Assembly (NCBI GenBank): GCA_030536755.1
Contig: JAUNPJ010000030.1
Location: 1 to 40,518 of the forward strand
DNA length: 40,518 nt
Origin: Eubacteriales bacterium
GTDB taxonomy: Bacteria > Bacillota > Clostridia > Lachnospirales > Lachnospiraceae
Direction of reading: 5' to 3'
This document shows, piece by piece, positions 7,701-40,388 of the stretch; the stretch's first letter is position 1, and the number at the start of each line of letters is the position of its first letter. The translations under genes and the position numbers were made by a program. The notes under the pieces were generated by a model. That model did no database searches and was not told the DNA's origin. It saw nothing but the letters and a program-made list of their open reading frames with translations.

Positions 7701-10700
7701 GTGGCAGGTGGGGGATACAGTCACGTATTGCATTCAGGTCAGCAGCCAGGATTGCGTGCCGGGAACGATTGCGAGAAATGTAGTAATCCGTGATATTGCC
7801 ATTCCAAACGGGCTTTTGCTTGAGGAATTCTCGCAAGTGACGGTGAATGGTGTCCCTGTTTCTGTAGAAAGTCCATGGGCAGGTCGTGCTGACACACCAA
7901 ACCAGTTGGATGAAGAGGATTACGGCTCTGTGCAGAAGCTGGATAATCAGCCTTTGCTTGAACCGCAGGAGCGCGGATTTTCTGTGACAATCCCTCATCT
8001 CCCGCAGGGAGAGACTGCAGAGATTGTCTTTTTGTGCAAAGCAGTTTCTGTGGCCGAAGGACAGGATGGATGGGAATGGATCAATCAGGCATCTGTGCAG
8101 GCGGATAATCAAAGGGGAAATGAGATTGCAGAAGATGATGCGGAAATTTATATCAATACAGCAAATCTGACTTTGGATAAAACAGTAATCAACCATTATT
8201 ACCAGCCTGAATCGGAAGAATATGATCATCGTGAGCCTTACGAATTCCGGGTAGGAGAGGAAGTGTATTACCAGCTGACAGTTCAGAACATCCAGAAAAA
8301 TTCTGTGGCGAGAAAGGTTGTGATTGAAGATGTCTCGCTGCCAGATGGGTTTGTACTGTCAGGTGAAAATCCCGTAACCGTGGAAGGATTTCAGCCGGTG
8401 TGGAATGAGCCGGTGGCCGGAACAGAAGATACAGCGAATCAGTTGGATGAAAATCATTACCGGGAAGTGGAACAGAGAGAGTTCACTTACAGCCTGGAAC
8501 TTCGTGAAGGGGAAAATGGAGTAACAGGATTTGCAATCATGATGGATGATCTGCCCTGTACTACGGGAGATACTCTCAATCCGGAGTGGAATACGCCGCT
8601 TGTCATTACGTACTGCTGTACTGCGGCAGAGCAGGTGAATGGCTGTGAGATCGTCAATCAGGCCAGAATCTATGCAGATAATGCAGGAGAAAAAACAGAT
8701 GCAGAGAGAATTTGGATCAACAGCCCCCGTTTGCAGGTAACAAAAAAGGCAGACAGAAAAGAATACAAGCTTGGTGATCTAATTACCTATGAGGTCGCGG
8801 CTGTACAGTGTCAGGAAGGTTGTAAGGCGAGAAATGTCGTATTTGCCGATGTGATTCTGACAGAGGGTGTGAAGATGCAAAAGGATAGTATTGTGTTGTT
8901 GGATGAGTCAGGAAGAGTTCTGAACAGAGAGGACTATGAAACGGAAATTTTCAGAGATCATTTTACTGTTTTTACTAAGAGAAATCTGATCTTTGGGCAG
9001 GCACTGACCATAGAATACCAGGCAGTTACCGTGGATGAACGCCTGGCTGGGAAGACGGCGGATAATCGAATTACGCTTAGTTCTGATGAACAGCTTCCGA
9101 CAGAAGATATCTGCCGTGTACCCGTGCACGCTCCCGCACTGAATATTGAAAAATTCTCTGATAAAAAGATTTATCAGGTGGGTGAGACTGGTATGTATCA
9201 TTTGGTCATTACACAGCTTCGGGAGGATGTCACGGCAGAAAATGTAGCGATTGCGGATGCCATGGAGGAAGATGGTGTGACGCTTGTGGCGGATTCGATT
9301 CAGTGCAGATACAATGGACAGGAATTTACTCCTCTTTTGAAGACAACAGAAAAAGGTTTTTCGATGGAGACGGGAAAGAATCTGACAGATGAAGATAAAA
9401 TCGAAATTTTTTATGAAGTGAAATTTTCTTCTCCGTTTTTGAATGGAAAGCAGGTGAAGAACAAAGTAACTGCCAAGGGAGATAATACACCGGAGGAAAG
9501 TCAGGAGCATACGGTAAAAGTTGTGGATGGATGCCCAATTCTGCGTATCCGTAAAACAGCAGATCAGAAAGAATACCAGCAGGGAGAGATTGGCCATTAT
9601 ACAGTGATGGTGCAGCAGACGGCGAAGGGCGCGACAGCCAGAAATGTAGTAATCAAAGATGTCATGCTGCAGGATGGGGCAAAAATAGTAACGGACAGCA
9701 TTCGTATCCAAAATAGCGTCGGAACGGTTCTGGACCGGCCGGAAATTGATGCAAATGCTTATGGATATACCATACATACGGGCATGGACCTGGAATACGA
9801 AGAATGCTTTACGGTTACCTATGATGTCATGTTTGAGAAAGTTGCTCATTTGTCAGAGGTGGTGAATGTGGCACGCGCTTCTTCGGATAATGCGCTGGCA
9901 GAGACAGAACCGACAGAAAGCTTGCCTGCAGTGGTGGGAGATGGACTGGAAGCGTATAAGACCAGTAACCCTCCAGGCGGTCAGATTGTTTCCAACGGTA
10001 TGGAGATTGTTTATACTATTACAGTAAGAAACAAAAGTGATCAGGAAAAGACAAACGTTATGGTAAAAGACAGAATTCCGGAAAAAACAGAATTTGTCAG
10101 ATTTGTGGAAGAAGATGGAGTTCAAACGCAGAAGATGACGCTGGATGGAAACGAATATGCTGCTTTTATCATCTCCAAAATTCCCGCTGGTGCCAGCCAG
10201 AGCGTTTCATTTACTGTGAAAGTGGCAGATGCGAAGGAAGATGATCTGCTGGTCAACGTGGCACAGGTGCGTCAGACAGTTGCCCATCCTGAGGATTTGA
10301 CAGAAGATTCCTGGAAGTCCGAACGGTTTTGGAATACCAATGAGACGGTGCATCCGCTCGATACCACATGGGCGCATGCGATTCATAAAGTAAAAGTGAA
10401 GCAGCCGGAAGAAACACCTGATCCAGAAGAAACGCCTGATCCGGAAGAAACACCGAAGCCGGATGAGACTCAGAAGCCAGAGGAAACACAAAAGCCAGAG
10501 GAGACACCGAAAGTACAAATTCCAGAAACGGAAACTCCATCTGCGTCAGAAAAGCCTGTTTCCGTGACAGTGCAGTCAAGCCAGACGCCTGCCTCCGCAT
10601 CTTCGGGAAAGACTGTCTCAGCAGGAAAGACAGGGGATGAAAGACCTCTGATGTGGGCTGGTGTCATAGCAGCTCTTTCTGCGGCGGGTATGTATACGGG

Positions 10701-11626: not shown

Positions 11627-11925
11627 CAGATAAAGCGAAATTACAGAGAAAACCTGTGAACAAGAGAAGTAGATAGTCGGAATATTTACAGAGAGCTGTC
11701 GGCTGGTGAAAGACAGTGATAGGATTACTATTGAATGGACTTGTGAGGGCGGCTTGAAACCAGGAGGGAGTAGATGTCGACGGGAGACCGGATCCGTTAT
11801 CAAGAAGGCATGTATGTTAGTACGTGAATGAGTGGGTATGTTATACCAAATTGGGTGGTACCGCAGAAGTTTACAGAGCTTTTGTCCCTTTGTTTTTCAG
11901 GGATGAAGGCTCTTTTTATTTGCAG
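11627..11925 (+). promoter_or_regulatory. Tryptophan-specific T-box riboswitch
   Basis: This leader reads the charging state of tRNA-Trp. Stem I includes AGAGAGCTGTCGGCTGGTGA (from 11689) and the specifier loop GAA-TGG-AC, with the Trp codon TGG at 11736-11738. The T-box core TGGGTGGTACCGC occupies 11852-11864; its TGG bulge would pair with the CCA end of uncharged tRNA. It is followed by the competing terminator. Uncharged tRNA-Trp should stabilise the antiterminator and switch on trpEGDCFBA. Only one T-box is present. The base after the core departs slightly from the usual CGCGG (here CGCAG). Confidence 0.93.
11875..11917 (+). terminator. T-box regulated terminator
   Basis: AGAGCTTTTGTCCCT (11875-11889) pairs with AGGGATGAAGGCTCT (11899-11913), with minor mismatches, and T residues follow to 11917. 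It overlaps the antiterminator side of the T-box and attenuates trp transcription when tRNA-Trp is charged. Confidence 0.88.
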
Positions 11926-34806: not shown

Positions 34807-35781
34807 TTATGTGGCGGTAGGTTCTTCAAATGCTTTGCGGACCATCTGAAAAGCGAATTCCTGTTCGGGTGTAAGTTGTTTTGGAATCCGGAGATGGAGG
34901 TTTAAGTACAAATCCCCTCTCTTTCCGATCTTGGGAGGATAGTTCATTCCCTCTCCGGGGAAACGAAGCCGTTGTTCCGGTGACGTGCCGGGAGGAACAG
35001 AAAAAAGAAGCTCTCCGTTCAGCCCCGGAACCTTGATGGTTCCTCCCAATACAAGAGTGTGAAAATCTATCGTGTAATCCATGTACAAATGATAATTCTT
35101 GCGCGTATATCCCGGCCTGTCGTTCAGGAGAATGATAACATAATAAAGATTGTTCGGATAGTGCGCGTGAAGATGATGAATCAGCTCTTCGCTGCCGCAG
35201 ATGACATCTTCTAATGGAATCAGCTGATTTTCATATGTGTTGGCAGGGATGTTGACTTTGAATTTCCATTCTTTTTCGGAGGTCTGTCTGGAAGCGCTGA
35301 ATACAGGACCGGAAGGGTACTCGATTAAAACCGCTTCTTTTGTGACGGCATGGAAAGTTTCTTCCATTTCCAGGTGGATTGCGATGCGAACCACATGTTT
35401 AAAAAATTCGGGTTCCGGATGAACGTGGTGAACATGGCGGCCGTGTTCGCCATGACCGCCGCATCCTCCACAGTCCCCGCCGCTGCAGTCTCCACTGTCA
35501 CAGGAGCCGCAGTGTTCATGATTCTGACCGGCGGTGTGTGTGAAATCATAGCTGTGAAAAGTGTCCCGATAAGCGCTGTGACCGTAATAATGGTACTTCT
35601 GTCTCTTGTCTGGATTAGATAAAACTGCATAGGCTTCCTGGATTTCCTGAAAACGCTCCTTGCTGTCTTTGTCGCTCGAAGAGTCGGGATGGTATTTTTT
35701 TGCCAGTTTTCGATAGGCGTTTTTGATTTCTTCCTGTGTGGCATCACGGCTGATGCCAAGAATATCATAATAATTTCGCAT
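34807..35781 (-). CDS. DnaJ-class co-chaperone with a Cys/His-rich linker
   Basis: A 324-residue DnaJ/CbpA-type protein. Residues 1-66 are a complete J domain with the HPD triad (31-33), so it should stimulate a DnaK ATPase. Residues about 85-125 form a Gly/Cys/His tract (CGSCDSGDCSGGDCGGCGG, then HGEHGRHVHHVHPE) with five Cys and about eight His. It is not the standard DnaJ zinc finger of four CxxCxGxG repeats. The C-terminal substrate-binding part (about 135-320) has FHTLVLGGTIKVPGLNGELL and VPPGTSPEQRLRFPGEGM. I chose MRNYYDIL at 35781; AAAGGATG lies upstream on the minus strand. The tract suggests metal binding. The gene is divergent from the nickel-enzyme operon, which may be meaningful. 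Confidence 0.88.
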   Translation of the reverse strand: MRNYYDILGISRDATQEEIKNAYRKLAKKYHPDSSSDKDSKERFQEIQEAYAVLSNPDKRQKYHYYGHSAYRDTFHSYDFTHTAGQNHEHCGSCDSGDCSGGDCGGCGGHGEHGRHVHHVHPEPEFFKHVVRIAIHLEMEETFHAVTKEAVLIEYPSGPVFSASRQTSEKEWKFKVNIPANTYENQLIPLEDVICGSEELIHHLHAHYPNNLYYVIILLNDRPGYTRKNYHLYMDYTIDFHTLVLGGTIKVPGLNGELLFSVPPGTSPEQRLRFPGEGMNYPPKIGKRGDLYLNLHLRIPKQLTPEQEFAFQMVRKAFEEPTAT

Positions 35782-35967
35782 ATAAATCATCCTTTGTAAG
35801 TACAACATCGGGTTTCTGTTTATATTATAAAAAAATTCCATGGATTTTTCAATATGATTTGGATAAAAAACGGATAAAAATAATCAATTTAAAAGATGCG
35901 TTAAATATTAGTCAAGCAAGTTAAATTCGTGACAATTTGATGATTTGACAGTTCTCATCTGTTTTGA

Positions 35968-36099: not shown

Positions 36100-36212
36100 T
36101 TACAGTAAATAATTACGTTGATTTCCATTCAAAACTGTGTGAACAGTTGCGATGATAAGAAAAGAAAGCAGATGAAAAATCTGTTTAGACTGTTCAGAAG
36201 GAGGTGCAAAAA

Positions 36213-36563
36213 ATGCATTTGATAAAAGATGAAAATGGAAATGTTGTTGCCCATGGACATGAGGCACATGATCATCACCATGACCACAGTCACGAAGAAT
36301 GTAGTCATGGTCATTCGCATGAACATTGCGGAAACTGTAGTGAAGGGAACTGCAAAGATGAAACAGTTGCTTTGCTTACCTATATGGTACAGCATAACGA
36401 GCATCATGCAATGGAGCTTGACCAGATGGCAGACAATCTGATTAAACTTGGAATGGATGACGCTGCGAGAACCATTAAAGAAGGCGTTGCTGATTTCCAG
36501 AAGGCAAATATGAGATTTTCGCTTGCTTTGACACAGGTAAAGACGCATGTAAAGGAGGCATAA
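36213..36563 (+). CDS. His/Cys-rich protein, candidate nickel store for CODH (CooJ-like role)
   Basis: A 116-residue protein. Residues 14-47 hold 12 His and 4 Cys (for example HDHHHDHSHEECSHGHSHEHC), a clear metal-binding tract. Residues 48-116 are predicted helical, with HNEHHAMELDQMADNLIKLG and a C-terminal VKTHVKEA. It heads the operon with CooT, CooC and CooS. In Rhodospirillum rubrum the His-rich CooJ stores nickel for CODH, but there the His cluster is C-terminal; here it is N-terminal, so this looks like an analogue and not a clear homologue. AAGGAGGTG stands before ATG 36213; a GTG at 36204 inside that site is unlikely. Nickel binding is inferred from composition and context. Confidence 0.8.
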   Translation: MHLIKDENGNVVAHGHEAHDHHHDHSHEECSHGHSHEHCGNCSEGNCKDETVALLTYMVQHNEHHAMELDQMADNLIKLGMDDAARTIKEGVADFQKANMRFSLALTQVKTHVKEA

Positions 36564-36566
36564 TAA

Positions 36567-36749
36567 ATGTGTTTGGCAACTGTAATTAAAAAATCAGATG
36601 GCACAGCAATTTTTAAAAATGTCAGCCGCATTGATGTGGAGGGAGACAAACTGATCATTCGAGATATTCTGGGAGATGAAAAACTTGTCGAAGGCAAAAT
36701 CCTGATGGTTGACCTTGCAAACAGTATGGTTGAGGTTGACTGCAAATAA
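36567..36749 (+). CDS. cooT: CooT-family nickel-binding protein
   Basis: A 60-residue CooT-family protein. CooT of R. rubrum is a small dimeric nickel-binding protein involved in CODH maturation. The start MCLATVIKK places Cys2 at the position used for nickel in characterised CooT. The rest (FKNVSRIDVEGDKLIIRDILGDEKLVEGKILMVDLANSMVEVD) matches the family's beta-barrel pattern. It starts 3 bases after the His-rich gene, with AAAGGAGGC overlapping that gene's end, and lies 42 bases before cooC. Confidence 0.88.
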   Translation: MCLATVIKKSDGTAIFKNVSRIDVEGDKLIIRDILGDEKLVEGKILMVDLANSMVEVDCK

Positions 36750-36791
36750 AGAAATAAATCGGATAAAGAAAAATAGATAGGAGGTGCCAGT

Positions 36792-37562
36792 ATGGCACAT
36801 GTAATTGCCGTTGCCGGTAAAGGCGGCGTTGGTAAGACTACTTTGTGTGGTATGCTGATTCAGTATCTGGGCGAAATTGGCAAGGGACCGATTCTTGCAG
36901 TCGATGCAGATGCCAATTCCAATCTGAATGAAGTGCTTGGCGTAGATGTGGATTATACGCTCGGAGATATCCGCGAGGAGATTGCCCAGTCAGAGATGGC
37001 GAAAGACAGCCCGATTCCGGCTGGTATGTCCAAGGCAGACTATGCAGAGATTAAATTTAATTCTGCATTGGTGGAAGATGATGAGTTCGATCTTCTTGTT
37101 ATGGGACGTACGCAGGGGAAAGGATGCTACTGTTTTGTTAATGGACTTCTTCAAGCGCAGCTTCAGAAACTGCAGAACAATTATCCTTATTTTGTAGTAG
37201 ATAATGAAGCAGGAATGGAGCATATTAGCAGAGGAATCCTCCCGAGTATGGAGACTGCGATTCTCGTAAGTGACTGCTCCAGAAGAGGAATTCAGGCGGT
37301 TGGCCGCATTGCAGAGCTGATCAAAGAATGCGATATGCATCCGAAGACGGTTGGTCTGATTGTCAATCGTGCTCCAAACGGAGAACTGAATGAAGGAACA
37401 AAAGAAGAAATCGAAAAGCAGGGCTTGTATCTGCTTGGTGTAGTTCCGCAGGATGAACAGGTTTATGAATTTGACTGCGAAGGAAGACCGACAACAGAAC
37501 TTCCAGAGGATTCTCCGGTGAAAAAGGCACTTCGTGAGATTGTCAAGAAGCTGGATCTGTAA
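36792..37562 (+). CDS. cooC: CooC-type nickel-insertion ATPase (first copy)
   Basis: A 256-residue MinD/ParA-type P-loop ATPase. The deviant Walker A is AVAGKGGVGKTT at the N-terminus. The metal-binding CxC of CooC is Cys112-Tyr-Cys114 in GKGCYCFVNG. VVDNEAGMEHISRG corresponds to the Walker B/switch region, and VDADANSNLNEVLG follows the P-loop. CooC dimers use ATP to load nickel into the C-cluster of CODH. Its position directly before cooS suggests this copy serves CooS. AGGAGGTGCC precedes the ATG. Confidence 0.92.
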   Translation: MAHVIAVAGKGGVGKTTLCGMLIQYLGEIGKGPILAVDADANSNLNEVLGVDVDYTLGDIREEIAQSEMAKDSPIPAGMSKADYAEIKFNSALVEDDEFDLLVMGRTQGKGCYCFVNGLLQAQLQKLQNNYPYFVVDNEAGMEHISRGILPSMETAILVSDCSRRGIQAVGRIAELIKECDMHPKTVGLIVNRAPNGELNEGTKEEIEKQGLYLLGVVPQDEQVYEFDCEGRPTTELPEDSPVKKALREIVKKLDL

Positions 37563-37689: not shown

Positions 37690-39582
37690 ATGAGTGAATT
37701 CAAATTAACGACACTTGAGGAGATGGAAGCGGCAACCGCGCGACTTTTAGAGACAGGTGCACAGGTAGGCGCTGATTCCTGGCAGATGCGTGTCAAAAAT
37801 CAGACACCACATTGTAAATTTGGTGAGGAAGGTGTTTGCTGTAGAATCTGTAGTATGGGACCTTGCCGTATTACAAAGAAAGCACCAAGAGGTATCTGCG
37901 GATGTGACGTACATGGTATCGTAGGAAGAAACTTCCTTCGTTTTACAGCAGGTGGTTCTGCAACTCACTCTGATCACGGACGTGAAATCTGCCATACACT
38001 GCATGAGGCAGCTGCAGACGGAAACTACAAAGTAAAAGACGAAGCAAAACTGCTGAGACTGGCAGCTGAGTTCGGCGTTGAGACAGAAGGCAGAGATATT
38101 TATGATGTTGCTCATGAAGTAGCAGAAGTTGGTCTGTTAGAGTATGGTAAACCATTCGGAACACAGGTATTCCTGAAGAGAGCTCCTCAGCATACACAGG
38201 ATATCTGGAAGAGAGAAGAAATTGAGCCGCGTGCAATCGACCGTGAAGTATCCTGTTCTTTACATATGACACATATGGGATGTTCTTCCAAACCGGAAGC
38301 ACTGATTCGTCAGTCTCTCCGTTCTGGCCTTTCTGATGGATGGGGCGGTTCTATGATGGGAACAGAGTTCTCTGATGTATTATTTGGAACACCGCACGAA
38401 ATTGAGACAGAGGCTAACCTTGGTGTTATGAACGCAGATAACGTAAATATCGTTGTTCATGGACATGATCCGTCACTTTCTGAGATGATTTGTGAATATG
38501 CAGATGATCCGGAAATGATCGCATACGCAAAAGAAATGGGAGCAAAAGGAATCACTGTATCTGGTGTATGCTGTACTTCCAACGAAGTTGCAATGCGCCG
38601 CGGAATTCCGATGGCTGGTAACTTCCTGCAGCAGGAAAACGTGGTACTGACAGGTGCCTGCGAAGCAATCGTTGTTGACGTTCAGTGTATCTTCCCGGCA
38701 TTAGGACCTCTGAGCAAATGCTTCCATACAAAATTCGTTACAACTTCTCCAATCGCACAGATGCCGGAGTCTGATTTTATCAGATTCAATGCACATACAG
38801 CTGGAGAAAATGCAAAAGCAATTGTTAAAATGGCAATTGAAAACTTCAAGAATAGAAAACCAGAACTCGTTCATATCCCGGATATGAAACAGAAAGCTGT
38901 TGTTGGATTCTCAGTAGAAGAAATCGTACACAAACTGGACGGTGTAACAAATACTCAGGTAGATAAGACAGGAACAACTCTTCCTCTGATCGAGTGTATT
39001 ACATCTGGTGTTCTTCGCGGTGCTGTTGCTATGGTTGGATGTAACAACCCGAAAGTCCGTTCCGATGCTGCTCATATCGGTCTGATGAAAAAACTGATCG
39101 CAAACGATATCGTTCTGGTTGTATCCGGATGTTCCGCACAGGCTGCTGCAAAAGCTGGTCTGATGGATAAGAGAGCAAAAGATCTCTGCGGCGCTGGTCT
39201 GAAACGTGTATGTGAGCTGGCTGACATTCCTCCAGTTCTTCATATGGGATCTTGTGTAGATATCAGCCGTATGATGGTTCTTGCTGCAACACTTGCAAAA
39301 GATTCTGGATTAAATATCTCCCAGCTTCCATTAGTAGGATGTGCTCCTGAGTGGATGTCTGAGAAGGCTGTTTCCATCGGTAACTACGTTGTTGCTACCG
39401 GTATCGATACATACCTTGGCGTTGAGCCTTACGTTTCCGGTTCTGATCAGATTGCAGGCCTGTTAACAGAAGGTGTTCGTGATTGGGTAGAGGCTGCTTA
39501 TACAGTTGAAAAAGATATCGAGAAATTAGGCGACATGATGATTGAGCGTATCGAAGAGAAACGTGCAGCATTAGGAATCTAA
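37690..39582 (+). CDS. cooS: Anaerobic carbon monoxide dehydrogenase, catalytic subunit
   Basis: A 630-residue Ni-Fe-S enzyme interconverting CO and CO2; with acetyl-CoA synthase it supplies the carbonyl of acetyl-CoA in the Wood-Ljungdahl pathway. The D- and B-cluster cysteines are intact: Cys42 and Cys50, then Cys51, Cys54, Cys59 and Cys70 (CKFGEEGVCCRICSMGPC...GICGCD). An extra Cys72 follows. C-cluster segments include the GSATHSDHGREI region, VSGVCCTSNE, VGCNNPK, VVSGCSAQAAAK and HMGSCVD. Length fits the family. Two CooC-type ATPases flank it and acsB follows, so it is the AcsA partner of acetyl-CoA synthase, not a free-standing CO oxidiser. Confidence 0.97.
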   Translation: MSEFKLTTLEEMEAATARLLETGAQVGADSWQMRVKNQTPHCKFGEEGVCCRICSMGPCRITKKAPRGICGCDVHGIVGRNFLRFTAGGSATHSDHGREICHTLHEAAADGNYKVKDEAKLLRLAAEFGVETEGRDIYDVAHEVAEVGLLEYGKPFGTQVFLKRAPQHTQDIWKREEIEPRAIDREVSCSLHMTHMGCSSKPEALIRQSLRSGLSDGWGGSMMGTEFSDVLFGTPHEIETEANLGVMNADNVNIVVHGHDPSLSEMICEYADDPEMIAYAKEMGAKGITVSGVCCTSNEVAMRRGIPMAGNFLQQENVVLTGACEAIVVDVQCIFPALGPLSKCFHTKFVTTSPIAQMPESDFIRFNAHTAGENAKAIVKMAIENFKNRKPELVHIPDMKQKAVVGFSVEEIVHKLDGVTNTQVDKTGTTLPLIECITSGVLRGAVAMVGCNNPKVRSDAAHIGLMKKLIANDIVLVVSGCSAQAAAKAGLMDKRAKDLCGAGLKRVCELADIPPVLHMGSCVDISRMMVLAATLAKDSGLNISQLPLVGCAPEWMSEKAVSIGNYVVATGIDTYLGVEPYVSGSDQIAGLLTEGVRDWVEAAYTVEKDIEKLGDMMIERIEEKRAALGI

Positions 39583-39623: not shown

Positions 39624-40388
39624 ATGAAGATTGCAGTGACTGGAAAGGGCGGAGTAGGTAAGACAACATTTGCTGCAACGTTGGCAAGACTTTATGCGGC
39701 CGAAGGCCGCAAGGTCCTTGCTGCCGATGTTGACCCGGATGCGAATCTGGGACTTGCACTTGGATTTGATGAGGAAACGCTGGATTCTATTATCCCGATC
39801 TCCAGAATGAGAAAACTGGTGGAGGAGAGAACGGGAGCAAACAGCGAAAATCAGTTTTACCGTTTAAATCCCAAAGTGGATGATATTCCAGATAGATATG
39901 GAAAGGTCTGCAATGGAGTAAAACTTCTTGTTCTTGGAACCGTTGAAACTGGCGGAGGCGGTTGTGTGTGTCCGGAGCATGTCATGTTGAAGCGTATTAT
40001 CAATAACATGGTGCTTCATCGGGACGATGTTGTAATCATGGATATGGAAGCCGGACTTGAGCATCTTGGACGCGGAACGACAGAAAGCGTAGACCAGTTT
40101 ATCGTAGTGATTGAGCCGGGGGCACGGAGTGTCCAGACATATAAGAACGTAAAACGTCTGGCTAGTGACCTTGGTGTGAAACAGGTTCGAGTTGTTGCGA
40201 ATAAAGTACGAAACGAGGAAGATGAAGCCTTTGTAAAGTCAAAAATTCCGGAAGAAGACTTGCTTGGATTTATTCACTATAATACAGAGGTTATAGATGC
40301 AGATCGTCAGGGAAAATCTCCTTACGATTTCAGCAAAACTGTAACGGACGAAATTATAAAAATTAAAAAGAAGATAGAAGAAAACTGA
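39624..40388 (+). CDS. cooC: CooC/AcsF-type nickel-insertion ATPase (second copy)
   Basis: A 254-residue P-loop ATPase of the same family, clearly divergent from the copy before cooS. Walker A is VTGKGGVGKTTFAATLA, then AADVDPDANLGLALG. The CxC motif is Cys114-Val-Cys116 in GGGGCVCPEHVML, and DMEAGLEHLGRGT is the switch/Walker B region. In acetogens a paralogue in this position, AcsF, is thought to act on acetyl-CoA synthase; location directly before acsB supports that. It could equally be a second CODH maturation factor, since the two types are hard to separate by sequence. It starts 41 bases after cooS. Confidence 0.9.
   Translation: MKIAVTGKGGVGKTTFAATLARLYAAEGRKVLAADVDPDANLGLALGFDEETLDSIIPISRMRKLVEERTGANSENQFYRLNPKVDDIPDRYGKVCNGVKLLVLGTVETGGGGCVCPEHVMLKRIINNMVLHRDDVVIMDMEAGLEHLGRGTTESVDQFIVVIEPGARSVQTYKNVKRLASDLGVKQVRVVANKVRNEEDEAFVKSKIPEEDLLGFIHYNTEVIDADRQGKSPYDFSKTVTDEIIKIKKKIEEN

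Follow-up and report, generated by a model that had tools for sequence, protein, structure and literature searches.

A histidine-rich, CooJ-like protein encoded beside CooT in the CO dehydrogenase operon of Lachnospiraceae

Introduction

The histidine tract of CooJ is C-terminal and variable. In R. rubrum, CooJ is reported to contain 16 histidines in its C-terminal domain and to bind four nickel ions with a Kd of 4.3 uM. CooT of the same species binds one nickel per dimer through Cys2, at 9 nM, and mutants of cooC, cooT or cooJ require added nickel (PMC6006190).

In C. autoethanogenum, hp (LABRINI_07945, CAETHG_1604) encodes a histidine-rich protein beside cooT and the C1-fixing cluster, and it was deleted in 2023 (PMC10230548). 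Deletion of hp or cooT is described there as causing growth defects in rich-medium batch culture and changes in chemostat culture, while minimal-medium autotrophic batch growth was unaffected. Nickel addition had no effect in the cooT deletion, and the abstract states that deletion of hp or cooT altered the levels of C1-cluster proteins. According to the authors, homologues are present in other acetogens.

Bohm and Land (2026) used PSI-BLAST on operons that contain both cooS and cooT, in CODH clades E and F, and reported 68 potential CooJ (PMC13056359); the main text of that paper mentions neither Blautia, Lachnospiraceae nor histidine. Relatives of the protein described here may be among the 68. 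A survey of gut CODH reported the arrangement cooS-cooC-acsB in Lachnospirales, and neither CooJ nor CooT appears in its main text (PMC11338639). Among the papers listed by a literature search, which covered few subscription papers, none concerned a protein of the present type in gut bacteria.

The CODH Operon and Its First Gene

The window, that is, the whole 40,518-nt stretch of contig JAUNPJ010000030.1 that was analysed, contains an operon with the order histidine-rich protein, CooT, CooC, CooS and second CooC. All five genes are on one strand, with gaps of 3, 42, 127 and 41 bases. The interval given in a sequence-only reading (36213..37562) spans the first three of them. The features are as follows.

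36198..36204, +, ribosome-binding site AAGGAGG of the histidine-rich gene, 8 bases 5' of the ATG
36213..36563, +, gene for the histidine-rich CooJ-like protein, 116 aa (ORF call and survey of relatives)
36213..36254, +, residues 1-14, beginning MHLIKDENGN, modelled as a beta hairpin (AlphaFold2)
36252..36326, +, residues 14-38, variable histidine tract, low model confidence (AlphaFold2 model, tail comparison)
36327..36353, +, residues 39-47, Cys motif CGNC....C (tail comparison, 81 sequences)
36354..36560, +, residues 48-116, predicted helical hairpin core (AlphaFold2 model, profile comparison)
36381..36419, +, residues 57-69 YMVQHNEHHAMEL, aligning in register with HW..HN..H, the CooJ motif seen in other members (alignment, profile comparison)
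36567..36749, +, CooT, 60 aa, Cys2 kept (PF10133, 55.7 bits, cut-off 27)
36792..37562, +, CooC1, ATPase of the MinD/ParA type containing GCYC (domain scans; named CooC for its motif and gene context)
37690..39582, +, CooS, Ni-CO dehydrogenase (TIGR01702, 611 bits, cut-off 478)
39624..40388, +, CooC2, second CooC-type ATPase, GCVC (Pfam scan; between cooS and acsB in relatives)

The alternative start GTG at 36204 in the ORF listing overlaps the ribosome-binding site of the first gene. The histidines of its product are at residues 2, 14, 16, 19, 21, 22, 23, 25, 27, 32, 34, 36, 38, 61, 64, 65 and 112, and the cysteines are at residues 30, 39, 42 and 47. This count agrees exactly with the sequence-only reading, which had placed 12 histidines and 4 cysteines within residues 14-47, followed by a helical part; the helices are predicted. 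Among six-frame ORFs of at least 60 aa, 12 histidines per 34 residues is the maximum in the window and the next stretch has 8, so that this density is not due to chance.

The single-sequence AlphaFold2 model predicts a short beta hairpin (residues 2-5 and 11-14), then a low-confidence tract, and finally two helices (44-78 and 82-115) forming a hairpin, with pLDDT block means of 91-98 over residues 51-110. Fold comparison of the model returned generic helical hairpins only; CooJ is absent among the 50 listed matches, which excludes nothing. Scans with Pfam, NCBIfam and PADLOC gave no family match for the protein, and its helical part is thus not a match to an unrelated family. DUF1411 (E 0.073) was below the family cut-off and was rejected, as were scattered single-member Pfam matches.

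Cys2 is invariant in all 18 aligned CooT, and translations of both CooC proteins keep CxC. The best PDB matches of the window CooS are CODH/ACS chains of C. autoethanogenum. The contig ends 130 bases past the second CooC gene, and searches, one of them run without a positive control, found no acsB in the genome of the window. Because acsB occupies the corresponding place in the near relative L105, its absence is likely to be an assembly gap.

Just upstream of the histidine-rich gene, 34807-35841 (-) encodes a divergent DnaJ-domain protein whose insert is rich in Cys, His and Gly. Such a protein also adjoins the gene pair in L014; none was found in L015. Rfam detected a T-box leader at 11647-11892 (+; 118.9 bits) and gave no match near the CODH operon.

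Tail and Cysteine Motif

Of 344 relatives obtained by scanning named genomes, the best 80 were kept for neighbourhood analysis, and together with the window protein they constitute the tail comparison (n = 81). The search pattern for the 80 loci required Y[MT][VLK]xHNxHHA, and the constancy of those residues in this set is no evidence. The tail is elastic, with 5-24 histidines in 35-123 residues. An MH start is available in all 81 sequences. HypA begins with Met-His, a nickel site, and the start of the window protein recalls it. All 81 tails contain at least two cysteines, 78 contain at least four, and CxxC is present in 69. The typical arrangement is CGSC....C, directly before the first helix. 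At most one histidine is seen beyond the core motif (Y57 to H65 in the window protein) in each of the 81; in the window protein, His 112 stands alone after residue 65.

Judged from these sequences, the Cys motif varies less than the histidine tract and is the more constant ligand candidate, in line with the thiol ligation considered in the sequence-only reading. The same constancy would suit a regulator that controls the CODH/ACS operon in response to nickel or redox state, with the Cys motif as its sensor, and the shift in C1-cluster protein levels reported after deletion of hp or cooT in C. autoethanogenum (PMC10230548) points in that direction as well. A regulator is nevertheless very unlikely, as no DNA-binding family was matched and the proteome shifts are possibly indirect.

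Distribution and Gene Neighbourhood

The best 80 of 344 relatives are mostly from Blautia or other Lachnospiraceae. They include B. wexlerae, B. luti, B. hansenii, B. schinkii, Fusicatenibacter saccharivorans, Lactonifactor longoviformis and Oliverpabstia intestinalis, and some are labelled merely Eubacteriales, Clostridia, Eubacterium or Ruminococcus sp. CooT lies immediately 3' of the histidine-rich gene in all 80 (79 by a distance rule; L155, with a 34-base overlap between predicted ends, was counted too). CooS follows CooT in 74 of the 80, and the remaining six contigs end 1.1-2.4 kb past the histidine-rich gene. AcsB is present in 63 of these loci. The order histidine-rich protein, CooT, CooC, CooS, first noticed in the window alone, is therefore a conserved unit, and the homologues of the window subfamily do not lie mainly away from cooS/acsB.

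Surveys with the core found carriers among 12 of 145 relatives, 17 of 398 phylum genomes (16 without G312) and 11 of 260 class genomes, which correspond to 36 distinct genomes. G312 was dropped as a chance match (4.3e-4 in the phylum survey; part of a 261-aa ORF; no CooT found). CooT adjoins a family member in 35 of the 36 genomes, and the 36th, G592, is cut by the contig end. CooT precedes the core protein gene in G734, and a second copy of the core adjoins CooT in G729 and G709. CooS is present in all 16 carriers of the phylum survey versus 163 of the 398 genomes overall, and in 10 of the 12 carriers among the relatives versus 23 of the 145 overall. CooT without this partner is common: the phylum survey contains 119 CooT genomes, and 16 of them have the core protein. 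In the other 103, a broader core profile gave only four partial matches, beginning at profile position 19 or later and ending at 62, and these were left out of the counts. No core was found near CooT in 30 CooT loci examined from the phylum survey. L043 (G389) has two tandem helical cores 5' of CooT at 7968-8960, the first of which is without the HNxxH motif.

Histidine tracts bind several metals, and the adjoining corrinoid-dependent acs genes would need cobalt too. The protein might thus store or sequester another ion (Zn, Co), or serve in detoxification, located in the operon yet donating no nickel. That it is consistently paired with CooT, which belongs to a nickel-binding family, makes such a role quite unlikely.

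Two of the 12 carriers among the nearest relatives are without CooS, which counts against a strict CODH role. In these genomes, G083 and G011 (95 and 96% complete), no match for CooS was obtained. Their loci of the histidine-rich protein and CooT are as follows.

L023 9585-15721, CooS-less locus of histidine-rich protein and CooT
L024 6951-12703, CooS-less locus of histidine-rich protein and CooT

In both genomes, the pair is near a CooC-like ATPase (GCYC), a BadF/BadG ATPase and two HGD-D proteins, which are of the 2-hydroxyacyl-CoA dehydratase type. Each genome also encodes a short CdhC-domain protein of 242 or 265 residues (24.0 and 29.5 bits, cut-off 24) in which the ACS C-terminal domain was not matched. 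The two short proteins are 36% identical to each other, and BLAST comparison with an AcsB gave nothing of note. In G747, the pair is followed by HGD-D proteins and a CooC-like ATPase 4-8 kb on. A search run without a positive control detected AcsB in none of G083, G011 and G747. It is rather unlikely that the histidine-rich protein and CooT constitute a portable nickel module serving more than CODH. If they do, these loci would represent an undescribed nickel-dependent enzyme system combining an ATP-driven low-potential electron donor with an ACS-like part. The CODH-less carriers suggest uses beyond the scope of CooJ work so far.

Relationship of the Helical Core to CooJ

The motif H(W/F)X2HX3H is said to have been described by Alfano in 2019 as conserved in CooJ. 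Ten genomes of the phylum survey encode a CooT-adjacent protein reading LLAHWIEHNxSHEE, which is exactly this motif. This group aligns without gaps with LLTYMVQHNEHHAMEL of the window protein, and the second and third histidines of the motif correspond to H61 and H65. The window protein reads Y57 M58 V Q H61 N E H64 H65 at this site, with Tyr57 in place of the first histidine and Met58 in place of the aromatic residue. Forms between HW and the YM of the window protein are observed: HL (G211, G240, G426, G597, G689, G750), HM (G747) and YL (G592).

Profile comparison of the core with the CooJ-motif group gave a probability of 94.2% and an E of 1.1e-7, and larger sets gave 96.5% and a score of 48.0. 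Of 60 controls, 59 were shuffled and one was reversed; their maximum was 19.8% with a score of 20.7. N-terminal histidine tracts are also present on CooJ-motif members, in Acetoanaerobium noterae, G709 and G622; in the latter two, the tails exceed 100 residues and the genes are near acsB. Since the protein of A. noterae has such a tail, it is not limited to gut Lachnospiraceae. The kinship with CooJ-motif proteins and the N-terminal tracts found there indicate that gut Firmicutes invented neither the core nor the position of the tail. The proposal that these bacteria solved nickel storage for CODH with a different protein is not supported, as the core is related to CooJ-motif proteins that are likewise beside CooT. 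On this evidence, the window protein seems to be a diverged relative of CooJ and not an independent protein, and we infer that the kinship of the core extends to R. rubrum CooJ itself.

The resemblance to CooJ could instead be convergent, if an unrelated helical protein gained a histidine tail and took the CooJ role in gut acetogens. The lack of a family match and the replacement of the motif's histidine and aromatic residue by Y57 and M58 fit such an origin. PDB searches also listed no chain named CooJ, in a database copy that may not contain one. The profile kinship, the intermediate forms and the partner CooT common to both groups make convergence unlikely.

R. rubrum CooT was used as a route to CooJ. 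In genome contigs it gave 590 pattern-matching stretches, none of them a relative, and against plasmids it gave weak matches only, in Marinobacter. A hunt for a CooJ query close to R. rubrum CooS led to loci with other CODH types. We call the window protein CooJ-like because two CooJ features, the C-terminal tract and the full motif, are missing from it and because the comparison contained no R. rubrum CooJ sequence.

In L050 and L055, the CooJ-motif protein is encoded with CooT and a DUF3842 protein in an acs cluster (acs names were read from translations in L050 and L055, and assigned by BLAST matches in L205, L208 and L209). In L053, the CooJ-motif gene is 3' of a gene for CbiM-type nickel/cobalt uptake. 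A DUF3842 protein is found repeatedly next to CooT and the CooJ-motif protein (L050 7603-8022, L055 7470-7880, L092 5405-5821, L053 8482-8904). PF12953 was confirmed in L050 and L092, and the assignment in L055 and L053 is by resemblance. It is a candidate for a further maturation factor.

A single frame of 973 aa in L203 (5697-8618; G729) contains a very histidine-rich CooJ-motif protein and the acetyl-CoA synthase AcsB. That the two are fused is doubtful here: AAGGAGG and ATG are kept at the AcsB start, and the frame represents either fusion or read-through. Two AcsB genes per cluster are seen in L208 7883-16050 (G709) and L203 5697-11454 (G729).

Proposed Function

The window protein is probably CooJ-like in function, buffering nickel and relaying it for the maturation of CODH/ACS. 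The disordered N-terminal histidine tract and the adjoining Cys motif would hold several Ni(II) loosely, and the helical hairpin, which is probably dimeric if R. rubrum CooJ is a guide, would bear a more specific site at HNxHH. From the histidine-rich protein, nickel would move to CooT, whose tight site is at Cys2, and from there to the CooC ATPases. CooC1 would load CooS, and CooC2 would probably load acetyl-CoA synthase. This chain of loose buffer, tight carrier and loading ATPase is modelled on the affinities reported for R. rubrum, 4.3 uM for CooJ versus 9 nM for CooT (PMC6006190).

The constant pairing with CooT, the presence of CooS in most carriers, the kinship of the core, the CbiM neighbour in L053 and the invariance of CooT Cys2 argue for a CooJ-like buffer, as do the nickel affinities and nickel-needing mutants reported for R. 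rubrum (PMC6006190). Against it count the missing full CooJ motif and C-terminal histidine tract, the two CooS-less carriers among the 12, the PDB searches, which listed no CooJ chain, and the hp deletion in C. autoethanogenum, which was reported to have no effect in minimal-medium autotrophic batch culture (PMC10230548).

This protein is a concrete candidate for the nickel end of the CODH/ACS pathway of gut bacteria, among them Blautia wexlerae, B. luti and Fusicatenibacter saccharivorans. It is tied to CooJ via intermediate forms, and the role of the tail, the Cys motif or the core becomes testable.

Comparison with Known Systems

Like R. rubrum CooJ, the window protein is histidine-rich, is encoded with CooT and CooC in an operon that contains cooS, and has a helical core, here a predicted one. 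CooJ is a coiled-coil homodimer, and the window protein was modelled as a monomer, with a helical hairpin as the result. Its gene is located with cooT and cooS, as expected of cooJ. The motif H(W/F)X2HX3H, reportedly a CooJ feature, is carried exactly by the related HW group, whereas the window protein has Y-M-x2-H-x3-H and, in addition, CGxC...C. The histidine tract is N-terminal in the window protein and C-terminal in CooJ (its location is also given in PMC6006190). The window gene is the first of its operon, while cooJ is the last.

A histidine tract as nickel buffer is common to HypB, HypA, Hpn-like and other histidine-rich nickel proteins, but none of these was matched by the window protein in Pfam or NCBIfam scans. 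The hp gene of C. autoethanogenum has the same setting, histidine-rich and beside cooT, and this likeness is one of context (PMC10230548). The window protein is most readily understood as a nickel buffer of CooJ-like type that has its tail at the N-terminus and an additional Cys motif. Its gene belongs to a pair already noticed in acetogens.
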